From NCBI RefSeq assembly GCF_002754195.1, contig NZ_PEEU01000001.1:2294001-2358000 (forward strand): a stretch of DNA of 64,000 bases, in the 5' to 3' direction. Positions 1,443-63,094 of the stretch are shown piece after piece (positions within the stretch are counted from its first letter, which is position 1; the number at the start of each line of letters is the position of its first letter). A model generated the notes under the pieces. It was not told the DNA's origin. It did not search any database and saw only the letters and a program-made list of their open reading frames with translations. The position numbers and the translations under genes were made by a program. Source of the stretch: Flavobacterium sp. 9 (GTDB taxonomy: Bacteria; Bacteroidota; Bacteroidia; Flavobacteriales; Flavobacteriaceae).

Positions 1443-2063
1443 TTAGTTGTTTTTGAAAGTTTTTTCAAACGGAACTCTATGCAAGATACTTCGTCCGAGT
1501 GTAATTTCGTCTGCGTATTCTAATTCATCACCTACAGAAATACCTCTTGCAATTGTAGAAATTATAATTTCTGATTCAGCAATTTGTTTATAAATGTAAA
1601 AATTAGTGGTATCTCCCTCCATAGTTGAACTTAATGCGAAAATAATCTCAACTACTTTTCCTGCTTTTACTTTTTCGACTAAACTTGAAATATTTAATTG
1701 ACTAGGACCAACTCCTTCAATTGGAGATATTTTACCACCAAGAACATGATAAATTCCTTTGTATTGTCCCGTATTTTCAATAGCCATAACATCTCTGATA
1801 TCTTCAACTACACAAATCGTTTGATGGTTTCTTGAATTGTTCGCGCAAATTTCACAAACTTTTGTATCTGAAATATTATGACAGCTTTCGCAAAACTTAA
1901 TGTCGGCACGCATATTTAGTAGTGCTTGCGACAAAAAGCTTGTTTGTTCTTTTGGTTGTTTTAATAAATGAAGTACCAATCGCAATGCCGTTCTCTTACC
2001 AATACCAGGTAATTGTGACATTTCGTTGACTGCTTTTTCTATTAATTTTGATGAAAATTCCAT
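1443..2063 (-). CDS. recR: Recombination mediator protein RecR
   Basis: RecR acts with RecO and RecF to load RecA on gapped DNA. The 206-residue protein has the family order: helix-hairpin-helix ([15 protein letters not shown], about 15-29), a four-cysteine zinc finger (CESCHN then CEIC, about 58-73), and a Toprim domain ([19 protein letters not shown], about 82-100) ending with the [12 protein letters not shown] region. Length is normal. The upstream neighbour on the same strand is the CoA-binding gene, separated by 181 bp that hold the structured repeat at 2161-2237. A -7 box lies only 5 nt before the ATG. Confidence 0.97.
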
Positions 2064-2160: not shown

Positions 2161-2237
2161 TAGCCCAGATGGCAACGGTATCCTTTTGTGGTGGGGTTCA
2201 CCACAAAAGATATAGTGGACAGCTGGAAATAGCTCCT
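2161..2237 (-). repeat. Structured dispersed element, copy 1
   Basis: On the plus strand the ends are TAGCCCAGATGG (from 2161) and ACAGCTGGAAATAGCT (to 2234). CCAG (2165-2168) pairs with CTGG (2223-2226), and AGC (2162-2164) with GCT (2232-2234). Inside is a perfect 11-bp hairpin, CTTTTGTGGTG (2183-2193) with CACCACAAAAG (2199-2209), loop GGGTT. It starts within 10 bp of the CoA-binding gene's stop, reading in that gene's sense. The same terminal sequences bound a second element at 62382-62521. Similar sequences are remembered from other Flavobacterium spacers, without a known function. Confidence 0.7.
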
Positions 2238-2244
2238 AAAAAAA

Positions 2245-2610
2245 TTAATATTGATTTGTTGCCAATAAAACTAATGTACATGCAACTTCGGCTTTAATAT
2301 TATTAAGTTCTAATAATTGATAAAATTCCGGATTTTCTGTTCCAGGATTAAAGACAACTCTTTTTGGCTGAGCTTCGATAATGTAATTATAATAATCACG
2401 TTGGCGTGCAGGATTCAAATATAAGGTAACGGTGTCTATATTTTTTACAGGAATTGCTTTAGTATGAATTTTAACACCGGCAACTTCACCTGTGTTTTGA
2501 CCAATTGCTAAAACAGTATGTCCTTTTTCAACTAACATATTTACAGCTCTAAAAGCATAACGATCTGGTTTTGTGGTAGCTCCCAGAACTAAAGTTTTTT
2601 TATTTTTCAT
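2245..2610 (-). CDS. CoA-binding domain protein (YccU-type)
   Basis: This small Rossmann-fold protein of the CoA_binding_2 family has 121 residues from the chosen start (MKNKKTLVLGATTKPDRYAF). The nucleotide-binding loop LGATTKPDRYAFRAV lies near residues 9-23, and the conserved VVFNPGTENPEFYQLL near 83-98. Its biological role is not known. The frame is open up to a TTG at 2640, but a TACTTTTG box (2628-2635, minus strand) lies inside that extension, so the start at 2610 or the adjacent ATG at 2613 is preferred. The 3' end is followed by the structured element and then recR on the same strand. Confidence 0.85.
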   Translation of the reverse strand: MKNKKTLVLGATTKPDRYAFRAVNMLVEKGHTVLAIGQNTGEVAGVKIHTKAIPVKNIDTVTLYLNPARQRDYYNYIIEAQPKRVVFNPGTENPEFYQLLELNNIKAEVACTLVLLATNQY

Positions 2611-2627
2611 CATTTTTAAATATTCTA

Positions 2628-2635
2628 CAAAAGTA
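2628..2635 (-). promoter_or_regulatory. -7 box of the CoA-binding gene
   Basis: TACTTTTG on the minus strand lies 14-17 nt before the two candidate ATGs. It decides against the upstream TTG start. No convincing -33 element is seen. Confidence 0.45.
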
Positions 2636-2708
2636 ATCAAAAAGAACGAGCTTAGTTTATGTTATTGATTTAGAAATAACAACATTAAAGACAATATCCT
2701 AACAAGTA

Positions 2709-11833: not shown

Positions 11834-11887
11834 AAGGTAGAGATTATGAATTCAGGTCAAATCCTTCGATAATCTATATTCTACCTT
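11834..11887 (-). promoter_or_regulatory. Candidate rpsD leader hairpin
   Basis: AAGGTAGA plus GATTAT (11834-11847) pair with ATAATC (11869-11874) and TCTACCTT (11880-11887), with a 5-nt bulge TATAT and a 21-nt apical loop. It fills the unusually long 95-nt rpsK-rpsD spacer and ends about 18 nt before the rpsD start. A ribosomal-protein leader is the natural guess. Confidence 0.6.
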
Positions 11888-61047: not shown

Positions 61048-62322
61048 CTACTCTTTTAGTGCTTTTACTAACACTTTATCAATCTTTACGCCATCCATAT
61101 CTAATACTTCAAGCACAAATTTTTGCCAGATTAACTTTTCGCCTTCTTTTGGAATATGCGAAAGCTCTGTCATAATCATTCCGCTTACGGTGTTTACTTC
61201 GTAATCATTTGTCAATTCGTCTAACTCAAAATAAGTTAGAAAATCATGCAAGGAATAATGTCCGTCAACCAACCATGAACCATCTTCACGTTCAATCAAT
61301 TGGAATTCGTCTTTATAAAAATCAGATGCATCACCAACTAAAGCTTCAAGAATATCATTTAAGGTAATTATACCTTGAAAAACACCATATTCATCTGAAA
61401 CTAAAGCGTAATGTACGCCTGTTTTTTTGAAATTCTCCAACGCTTTATAAGCCGTTGTTTGCTCCATTAAATAAGGAGCATCTATCATTATTGCATTCAA
61501 GTCGAAATTATCACTTTCGATGTTTGCGAATATATTTTTTAAAGTTACGATTCCAACAATGTCATCGTAATTATCTCTGTAAACTGGATAAACGGTATGT
61601 AAATCCTGTAATACTAATTCCTTAATTTTTGCCTTATCAGCAGTAAACGGCAACATGTCTACTGATTTACGGTGCGTCATTAACGAATTTACTTTTCTGT
61701 CACCAATGTGAAAAACACGTTCTACGATATCTTGTTCTATTTCCTGAACTTCTCCGCCTTCGGTTCCTTCTTTAATGATGGCTTTAATTTCTTCTTCGGT
61801 TACTTTACCGTCTGCTGTTGGTTTTATCTGCAAAACATTCAACAAAAAATCTGTTGAAGAAGTTAACAGCCAAATAAACGGCGCGGTAATAATCGAAACG
61901 ATTTTCATTGGTAATGCTACCATTTTTGCAATCGATTCTGGATAATTTAAACCAATACGTTTTGGTAATAATTCACCTAAAACTAAAGAGAAAAATGTCA
62001 AAACTACCACAACAATTCCCACTGCAACTGAATGTGCATATGGTTTTAAAACGGCAAAACCGCTTACAAATGTTTCTACATCTATTGTGATTTTATCCCC
62101 ACTGTAAATACCGGTTAAAATTCCGATTAAGGTAATTCCGATTTGTACAGTAGATAAAAACTTGTTTGGTGAATTGGCTAAATCGAGCGCAATCTTCGCA
62201 CTTTTGTTTCCCTTTTTTGCGGCGGTTTCCAATCTATTTTTTCTTGCCGAAATAAGTGCAATTTCGGACATAGAGAAAACGCCGTTTAATAGTATTAGAA
62301 AAAATATTATTAGTATTTCCAA
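61048..62322 (-). CDS. CNNM/CorC (hemolysin family) membrane protein
   Basis: The 424-residue protein has an N-terminal DUF21 (CNNM) transmembrane domain (MEILIIFFLILLNGVFSMSE, then LGELLPKRIGLNYPE), a pair of CBS domains (about 205-325, with TVYPVYRDNYDDIVGIVTLK and GVFQGIITLNDILEALVGD) and a C-terminal CorC/HlyC transporter-associated domain (DGSWLVDGHYSLHDFLTYFE). Relatives are magnesium or cobalt efflux proteins; haemolytic activity is only a legacy name. It ends 108 bp before obg on the same strand. Confidence 0.9.
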   Translation of the reverse strand: MEILIIFFLILLNGVFSMSEIALISARKNRLETAAKKGNKSAKIALDLANSPNKFLSTVQIGITLIGILTGIYSGDKITIDVETFVSGFAVLKPYAHSVAVGIVVVVLTFFSLVLGELLPKRIGLNYPESIAKMVALPMKIVSIITAPFIWLLTSSTDFLLNVLQIKPTADGKVTEEEIKAIIKEGTEGGEVQEIEQDIVERVFHIGDRKVNSLMTHRKSVDMLPFTADKAKIKELVLQDLHTVYPVYRDNYDDIVGIVTLKNIFANIESDNFDLNAIMIDAPYLMEQTTAYKALENFKKTGVHYALVSDEYGVFQGIITLNDILEALVGDASDFYKDEFQLIEREDGSWLVDGHYSLHDFLTYFELDELTNDYEVNTVSGMIMTELSHIPKEGEKLIWQKFVLEVLDMDGVKIDKVLVKALKE

Positions 62323-62381: not shown

Positions 62382-62521
62382 TAGCCCAGATGGAAGTGAA
62401 AAGCCCGGAGCTAAAAAAACTAATTTTTCTTGCCAGAAAACAGCGACAGGAGGAAGCTCGTTTTAAGGTTAGAAAAATAGTTTTTTTAGCGAGGACTAGT
62501 AACGTACAGCTGGATTAGCTA
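62382..62521 (-). repeat. Structured dispersed element, copy 2
   Basis: On the plus strand it begins TAGCCCAGATGG (62382) and ends ACAGCTGGATTAGCTA (62521), abutting the adk stop. TAGC+CCAG (62382-62389) pair with CTGG (62510-62513) and GCTA (62518-62521). The inner stem is GCTAAAAAAACTAATTTTTC (from 62410) with AGAAAAATAGTTTTTTTAGC (62471-62490), about 20 bp with one bulge. Its arms share no sequence with copy 1. The apical loop carries GCGACAGGAGGAAGCTCG. Confidence 0.75.
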
Positions 62522-63094
62522 CTACAAATTATCTATAACTGACGTTAAGCGTTGTGTAATTTCTTCGATAGTTCCAATACCGTTTACGGCGTGAAACTTA
62601 TTTTGTTCTTTATAATATCCAATTAGTGGAGCTGTTTTTTCATTGTATTCCTGATATCTTACACGAATTTTTTCTTCGTCCTGATCATCAACTCTTCCAC
62701 TTGTTTTTCCTCTTTCTAGTAAACGTGCTACCAGAATTTCATCATCTGCTTCTAATGCAATTGTTGCTGTAACGCTTGATCCAATTGTTGGTAAAAACTT
62801 GTCTAAAGCTTCTGCCTGATCTAATGTTCTTGGATAACCGTCAAATAAAAAACCGTTTGTATCAGGATGTTTGTTTACTTCGTCAATTAACATTGCAGTT
62901 GTAACTTCGCAAGGAACCAATTCTCCATTGTCCATAAAAACTCTTGCTTTTTTACCTAAATCTGTGTCATTTTTTAAATTAAAACGAAAAATATCTCCTG
63001 TTGAAAGGTGTGTTAATTTGTATTTTTCTTTCAAAAATTCAGCCTGAGTTCCTTTTCCTGCTCCTGGTTTTCCAAATAAAACAATGTTAATCAT
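62522..63094 (-). CDS. adk: Adenylate kinase
   Basis: This enzyme interconverts ATP+AMP and 2 ADP. The 190-residue short form has P-loop LFGKPGAGKGTQAEFL (about 5-20), STGDIFRFNL, the signature FLFDGYPRTLDQAEAL (about 81-96) and a reduced lid (ERGKTSGRVDDQDEEKIRVR) without the zinc-finger lid. It lies between hpt (74 bp) and the structured element directly after its stop. Its location apart from secY differs from many bacteria. Confidence 0.97.
   Translation of the reverse strand: MINIVLFGKPGAGKGTQAEFLKEKYKLTHLSTGDIFRFNLKNDTDLGKKARVFMDNGELVPCEVTTAMLIDEVNKHPDTNGFLFDGYPRTLDQAEALDKFLPTIGSSVTATIALEADDEILVARLLERGKTSGRVDDQDEEKIRVRYQEYNEKTAPLIGYYKEQNKFHAVNGIGTIEEITQRLTSVIDNL

Follow-up and report, generated by a model that had tools for sequence, protein, structure and literature searches.

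Results

A structured element beside recR and a CoA-binding protein gene

The window analyzed here is a stretch of 64,000 nucleotides from Flavobacterium sp. 9 (G000), whose genome comprises 6.33 Mb in one contig. The window contains a short structured element whose near neighbor is a gene for a CoA-binding protein, its stop codon 10 nt away, as well as a longer second copy next to the adenylate kinase gene. Each copy consists of an imperfectly paired conserved frame, made up of two half-sites of ≈27 and ≈30 bases, around a hairpin. The features are as follows.

1443..2063, minus strand: recR, neighboring the element on the side away from the CoA-binding gene (open reading frame; RecR_HhH, RecR_ZnF, Toprim, and RecR_C domains)
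2162..2234, plus strand: complete Flavo-1 element of the regular form, AGCCC ... TAGCT (RF01705 match and direct reading)
2162..2187, plus strand: 5' half of the conserved frame, AGCCC...ATCCTTTT (split of the element into frame and apical part; frame columns differ far less between genomes)
2188..2204, plus strand: apical hairpin, the part proposed to be exchanged, GTGGTGGGGTTCACCAC (split of the element)
2205..2234, plus strand: 3' half of the conserved frame, AAAAGAT...AGCTGGAAATAGCT (frame/apical split)
2245..2640, minus strand: CoA-binding protein gene (PF13380; open reading frame and Pfam, the Pfam entry given as 2245-2628)
61048..62322, minus strand: gene for a CNNM/CorC-type transporter, flanking the second copy opposite adenylate kinase (open reading frame and Pfam)
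62383..62520, plus strand: second copy, a long form with the same ends and a long inner hairpin (RF01705, 30.4 bits, below the cut-off of 42)
62522..63094, minus strand: gene for adenylate kinase (PF00406), whose stop codon lies 1 nt from the second copy (open reading frame and Pfam)

The window also carries an S4-Flavobacteria ribosomal protein leader (Rfam RF03141) at 11842-11874 on the minus strand (50.1 bits, cut-off 35.2).

The original prediction described ends able to pair as AGC/GCT and CCAG/CTGG with a 5-nt bulge, enclosing an 11-bp hairpin (CTTTTGTGGTG / CACCACAAAAG) with a GGGTT loop, and a second copy that shares the ends but not the inner sequence; direct reading confirms each of these and shows the inner hairpin of the second copy to be longer. 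Its suspicion of a tie to the Flavo-1 motif is borne out by the comparison with Rfam that it had called for. The RF01705 'Flavo-1' covariance model matches the first copy at 2158-2233 with 77.7 bits (E = 1.9e-15), passing the curated cut-off of 42 over the full model and with an identical consensus structure. The second copy, at 62383-62520, scores 30.4 bits (E = 9.4e-5 in 301 bases searched) and is a distant long form of Flavo-1, a form that the RF01705 model misses at its cut-off. Across the genome we obtained 120 matches with E values up to 0.1, at no fewer than 119 places (one place was matched on both strands); this count is a lower bound, with 150 of 1745 first-look candidates scored. 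Because the model matches both copies and 120 sequences in this genome, and none across 14 control genomes, a chance origin of the element and its second copy is ruled out.

Covariation supports the fold

For an alignment of 45 regular copies, RNAalifold gives 16 pairs, and 9 of the 16 show two-sided changes; of the 47 regular copies, the near-duplicate L092:16964-17040 and the palindromic L111:15662-15737 were omitted. In this alignment 96.7% of cells pair, versus 80.6% in shuffles and at most 60.1% with partners slid, and the covariation score is 0.509, versus 0.191 for shuffles and at most 0.106 for the slid controls. The scan that yielded our set of 71 copies demanded one pair, denoted X-x, and its count within the pairing and covariation figures is therefore forced; when the requirement was lifted, 63 of 67 copies still formed this outer pair, as C-G, T-A, or A-T. 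The Flavo-1 structure is thus well supported, and the compensatory changes that the original prediction proposed to look for uphold its claim of selection on structure.

The supported outer helix is CC-X-G / C-x-GG. Because the outermost AGC/GCT helix is nearly invariant, covariation is uninformative for it, so that of the terminal helix first proposed, the CC-X-G / C-x-GG portion stands, whereas the AGC/GCT pairs are possible but carry no covariation signal. Read on the Rfam strand, the 515 apical pairs include 28 G.T versus 5 A.C mismatches, 17 of the 28 G.T falling at one position. This bias hints that a single strand folds, which fits single-stranded DNA and RNA alike.

Copies avoid divergent gaps and have no fixed strand

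To place the element among genes we used the 71 copies, which are 78 scan matches minus 7 judged false by eye (a reversed-sequence control gave 5 matches), and noncurated open reading frame calls of ≈80 amino acids or more; 7 of the 71 copies overlap a called frame. Of the copies flanked by tandem genes, 22 share the strand of those genes and 23 do not; another 20 are in convergent and 5 in divergent gaps, and 1 lacks an upstream gene. The same segments hold 99 convergent and 113 divergent intergenic gaps of at least 80 bases. Copies therefore avoid divergent (promoter) gaps, and their strand relative to genes is not fixed. The proposal of an RNA-level 3'-end element fails on this placement. 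Both window copies do follow a minus-strand stop codon in the same orientation, as originally noted, but the family of 71 does not share this arrangement. Strand bias by replichore received no support, the best two-segment split being equalled in 19% of shuffles.

An intrinsic, perhaps bidirectional, transcription terminator would account for the strong hairpin, the stop codons before both window copies, and the 20 convergent versus 5 divergent placements. However, the stem is not followed by a T run in the 71 copies, whose 3' side is A-rich, a T run instead precedes some copies, and those between tandem genes are split 22 to 23 between the strands. We consider a terminator very improbable.

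Many copies share a 5' leader, TTCTTATGAAAA..GCCCT, in which we found no conserved open reading frame; a hidden short frame spanning leader and element was rejected, since frame and stop vary.

Other features of the surrounding DNA deserve mention. In one relative, a region of ≈76 kb (G066:C13:246720-322503, L181-L185) holds 13 Flavo-1 copies on the same strand. A run of this kind might suggest the cassette array of an integron, with the copies as attC sites, but the intervening genes lie on both strands. Several copies are preceded by another inverted repeat of the GTCATTGCGAGGAACGAAGCAATC type, for example upstream of G000:C1:1065178, giving mosaic intergenic regions. Two further repeat families, of ≈187 and ≈114 bases, occur at L097:4130-4316 and L097:11647-11760 and have many matches in related genomes.

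The site next to the CoA-binding gene is shared across species

The CoA-binding gene was present at 66 of 80 genus loci. At 17 of these 66 other-species loci, a scan allowing 3 mismatches detected an element 8-93 nt past the stop codon of the gene (32 matches in the scan versus 9 in a reversed control of 1.52 Mb), including in species whose next gene is something other than recR. Because of this recurrence behind the same gene, the site is old. In a syntenic 20-kb region compared among eight relatives and Flavobacterium sp. 9, 8 of the 9 genomes have an element at a Flavo-1 site, carrying several different hairpins.

Retention 3' of the CoA-binding gene is what one would expect if Flavo-1 were an RNA element (a small RNA or untranslated region) in which only the frame and the presence of a hairpin matter while the hairpin sequence drifts under selection for pairing. 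Greater tolerance of G.T than of A.C on the Rfam strand also favors such an element, as does the classification of RF01705, which Rfam lists as an sRNA and which is entered as a structured RNA with 'y' under RNA and 'n' under cis-regulatory (Weinberg et al. 2010, PMC2864571). Flavo-1 is listed among the most abundant small RNAs (PMC9029176). The evidence in the Flavobacterium psychrophilum transcriptome report (PMC9723704) is mixed and mostly against: several 5' transcripts coincide with Flavo-1 matches, but the report describes the motif as lacking a consistent sense, with many copies outside transcripts. Together with the lack of a fixed strand relative to genes and the hairpin differences described below, this makes an RNA element an unlikely explanation, though one with real points in its favor.

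Distribution is patchy and does not follow a tested enzyme

The original prediction anticipated copies with pairing inner arms in related genomes; many further Flavo-1 copies exist there, and their arms pair. Within the genus, copies per genome range from 0 to at least 65, and 40 of 60 relatives have the element. In the phylum it occurs in 17 of 148 genomes, representing several families. Plasmids and phages gave no match to 86 bases of the element.

No partner enzyme was found among those tested. Close parallels are the REP/REPIN/BIME elements associated with the TnpA-REP (RAYT) transposase, which, as described in PMC6006769, are likewise extragenic, palindromic, high in copy number, and patchy between species. 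Flavo-1 might on these grounds be a REP element moved by such a transposase (HUH, Y1), and the same paper reports that the Bacteroidetes RAYT subclass 2.6 is flanked by 'atypical secondary structures'. Yet Flavo-1 lies within 1.5 kb of only 1 of 31 Y1 (PF01797) loci, its counts (capped at 65) do not track those of Y1 in 37 genus genomes (Spearman 0.01), and a Y1 match is missing from 9 of the 30 genomes that carry 10 or more copies. With neither adjacency nor co-occurrence, we rejected a RAYT/Y1 transposase as partner. The GT[AG]G foot of REP elements is also absent: in the 71 copies AGCCC is always preceded by T, and that T by C, T, or A, never G. Flavo-1 differs further in that its inner hairpin varies while the frame is kept. 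Mobilization by a RAYT is largely refuted for recognizable PF01797 proteins, and we regard it as extremely improbable. The two Y1 genes of Flavobacterium sp. 9 (L009/L010; G000:C1:351434, 2962326) are ringed by short palindromes of their own, GTTCCATCGGAAC and CTCCGATGGAG, unlike Flavo-1.

At three places (L113:15790-18176, L181:12165-14552, and L183:11931-14306) a gene for an accessory UvrD-like helicase is followed ≈90-120 bases on by Flavo-1. This helicase, upstream of copies in G000 and G066, was rejected as partner, close homologs being found in 3 of 38 genomes.

Orthologous copies often carry different hairpins within the same frame

We compared the Flavobacterium sp. 9 copies with those of the close relative G134, which shows 97.1% identity across 3570 bp of the adk locus. 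G134 has 110 RF01705 matches, of which 75 could be paired with the Flavobacterium sp. 9 matches by order and spacing. The compared segments were chosen around Flavo-1 matches, and this single close genome pair carries most of the argument. Both flanks were located in G134 for 57 of 97 elements; 9 of these 57 failed the scan in G000 and 4 lacked an element in G134, leaving 44 with a scorable element in both genomes. Four of the 44 were not splittable into frame and hairpin, so 40 were analyzed.

At the 40 split sites, apical columns differ at 311 of 879 positions (35%), as against 77 of 1096 and 117 of 1252 (7-9%) in the two frame halves. With 8 block-replaced sites removed, the frame halves differ by 2.4% and 3.8% and the apical part by 19.7%, and the 60-nt flanks, counted where they align with few gaps (34 upstream, 29 downstream), differ by 8.8% and 6.3%. 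In this genome pair, frame columns change more slowly and hairpin columns faster than nearby aligned intergenic DNA.

Twenty-one of the 40 hairpins have at least 4 differing positions, and 10 of these 21 lie in elements with no more than 2 frame differences. At many sites orthologous hairpins differ as whole blocks that are still paired, with the frame in place and the flanks mostly 90-99% identical. At site 3313585, for instance, GTGTCCGCCGCGGCGGACAC in one genome corresponds to TCTGGCTTCTTTAGCCAGA in the other, with one difference in each frame half. Other changes are of different kinds: at 994470, 1347091, 4652228, and 6237638, only one of the two genomes has a side hairpin (of the TCCCGAAGCTTCGGGA type or another), and at 4862855 one arm of the Flavobacterium sp. 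9 copy matches the other almost perfectly, making a near-perfect palindrome unlike G134 and the regular copies. Assembly error is an unlikely source of such differences because the differing hairpins retain their pairing and the pattern recurs in other genomes.

At the site next to the CoA-binding gene, the whole element differs in G134, which bears a different apical hairpin there (located flanks 95.6% and 98.5% identical, the left one ending ≈70 bases short of the element). The hairpin GTGGTGGGGTTCACCAC occurs at 3 places in the compared segments of Flavobacterium sp. 9 and at none in those of G134. Because Flavobacterium sp. SLB02 has the same apical hairpin as Flavobacterium sp. 9 at this site (L011), the change probably took place in G134; the direction of change could be settled at few sites. 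The second window copy differs from its G134 ortholog by one base.

Two of the 44 sites, 1512445 and the one next to the CoA-binding gene, showed replacement of the whole element. None of the 57 located sites is cleanly empty, the 4 without an element in G134 showing other sequence or wider change, and none was clean among the genus loci, where intergenic DNA is too diverged and missing elements are not clean excisions. No target duplication was seen at the examined sites. The description of the element as mobile thus holds for its dispersal and its replacement in place, but no clean insertion into an empty site accompanies it.

These observations bear on whether Flavo-1 is a nonautonomous transposon whose enzyme has escaped identification, copies being excised and others inserting at the same place. 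High and patchy copy number, the leader common to many copies, and the two whole-element replacements would all fit. On the other hand, 10 of the 21 changed hairpins come with so few frame differences, the empty sites and target duplications expected of a transposon are missing from the sites above, and the enzymes tested yielded no candidate. We therefore consider transposition of whole elements distinctly improbable. A frame slower than the flanks would fit an RNA element, but block differences between hairpins are too fast for stepwise compensation, although blocks, once replaced, might still come under selection.

Within the compared segments of its own genome, a changed hairpin had an exact duplicate in only 7 of 21 cases for G000 and 7 of 21 for G134, counts in which overlapping segments may enter one copy twice; donors are thus mostly not identified. 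At 2012842 the G134 partner is ambiguous, with two copies 291 bp apart. At G134:C1:3542171 and 3542462, Flavo-1 copies with differing hairpins lie 291 bases from each other, whereas Flavobacterium sp. 9 has a single copy there.

Comparison with other intergenic hairpins

As a control, we collected 166 distinct other intergenic hairpins, of which 46 were comparable and 43 remained after dropping 3 sites that mapped to one target. Both arms had changed in 14 of 40 Flavo-1 hairpins (13 without 6237638, an artifact of splitting at a side insertion) versus 1 of 43 controls (p = 1e-4), and at least 4 differences were found in 21 of 40 versus 8 of 43 (p = 0.0014). Entry into the control set, however, had required that the flanks align to within 6 bases. 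With the flank rule equalized, both arms had changed in 3 of 15 Flavo-1 hairpins versus 1 of 43 controls (p = 0.049), and 7 of 15 versus 8 of 43 had at least 4 differences (p = 0.045). The equal rule shrinks the contrast and slightly lowered our confidence in a DNA-level explanation; the contrast between apical part and frame inside the elements is independent of this control.

Discussion

What is new here is that orthologous Flavo-1 copies often keep their frame while carrying a different, still-paired apical hairpin. Among the open-licence PMC papers listed in our searches, no title or opening of an abstract mentions hairpin exchange in Flavo-1. A block change with paired arms is hard to reach by stepwise mutation at the divergence of G134, and copying via the shared frame from another copy, or from the opposite arm, would fit best. 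On balance, we lean toward reading Flavo-1 as a DNA element interspersed in the genome rather than an RNA gene or 3'-end signal, with other copies serving as templates from which its hairpin is rewritten in place. Three properties set the element, as seen here, apart from its filing in Rfam: it has no strand relation to genes, its apical hairpin is replaceable, and its long form falls below the cut-off of the model.

Such rewriting could begin when a nascent DNA strand stalls at the folded single strand and switches template. A switch onto its own other arm would yield a near-perfect palindrome, as in one copy, whereas a switch onto another copy sharing the frame would copy the hairpin of that copy before the strand returns. 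The common frame would supply local homology, and folding of one strand would keep new hairpins paired. That the frame evolves more slowly than the flanks suggests a function beyond this copying. A variant in which a host or selfish enzyme recognizes the folded frame on one strand and swaps in the apical hairpin of another copy, the hairpins being the mobile units, seems to us improbable.

Modular repeats such as pneumococcal BOX also combine conserved ends with a variable inner module; in Flavo-1, what differs at a given site is an inner module that remains a paired hairpin. The change at 4862855, where an imperfect hairpin became near-perfect, resembles quasipalindrome-associated template-switch mutation (see PMC7202029). 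That process usually acts within one palindrome, however, whereas most Flavo-1 changes bring in a hairpin of different sequence.

A family counted among the most abundant 'small RNAs' is probably a DNA repeat, which bears on genome annotation and RNA surveys in the Bacteroidota. Pairing-preserving change of a hairpin in place, between near-identical genomes, supplies events that can be counted and hence a natural assay for template switching or ectopic conversion. There is also a warning here: the covariation that is standardly taken to prove an RNA structured could arise from block exchange of DNA hairpins.
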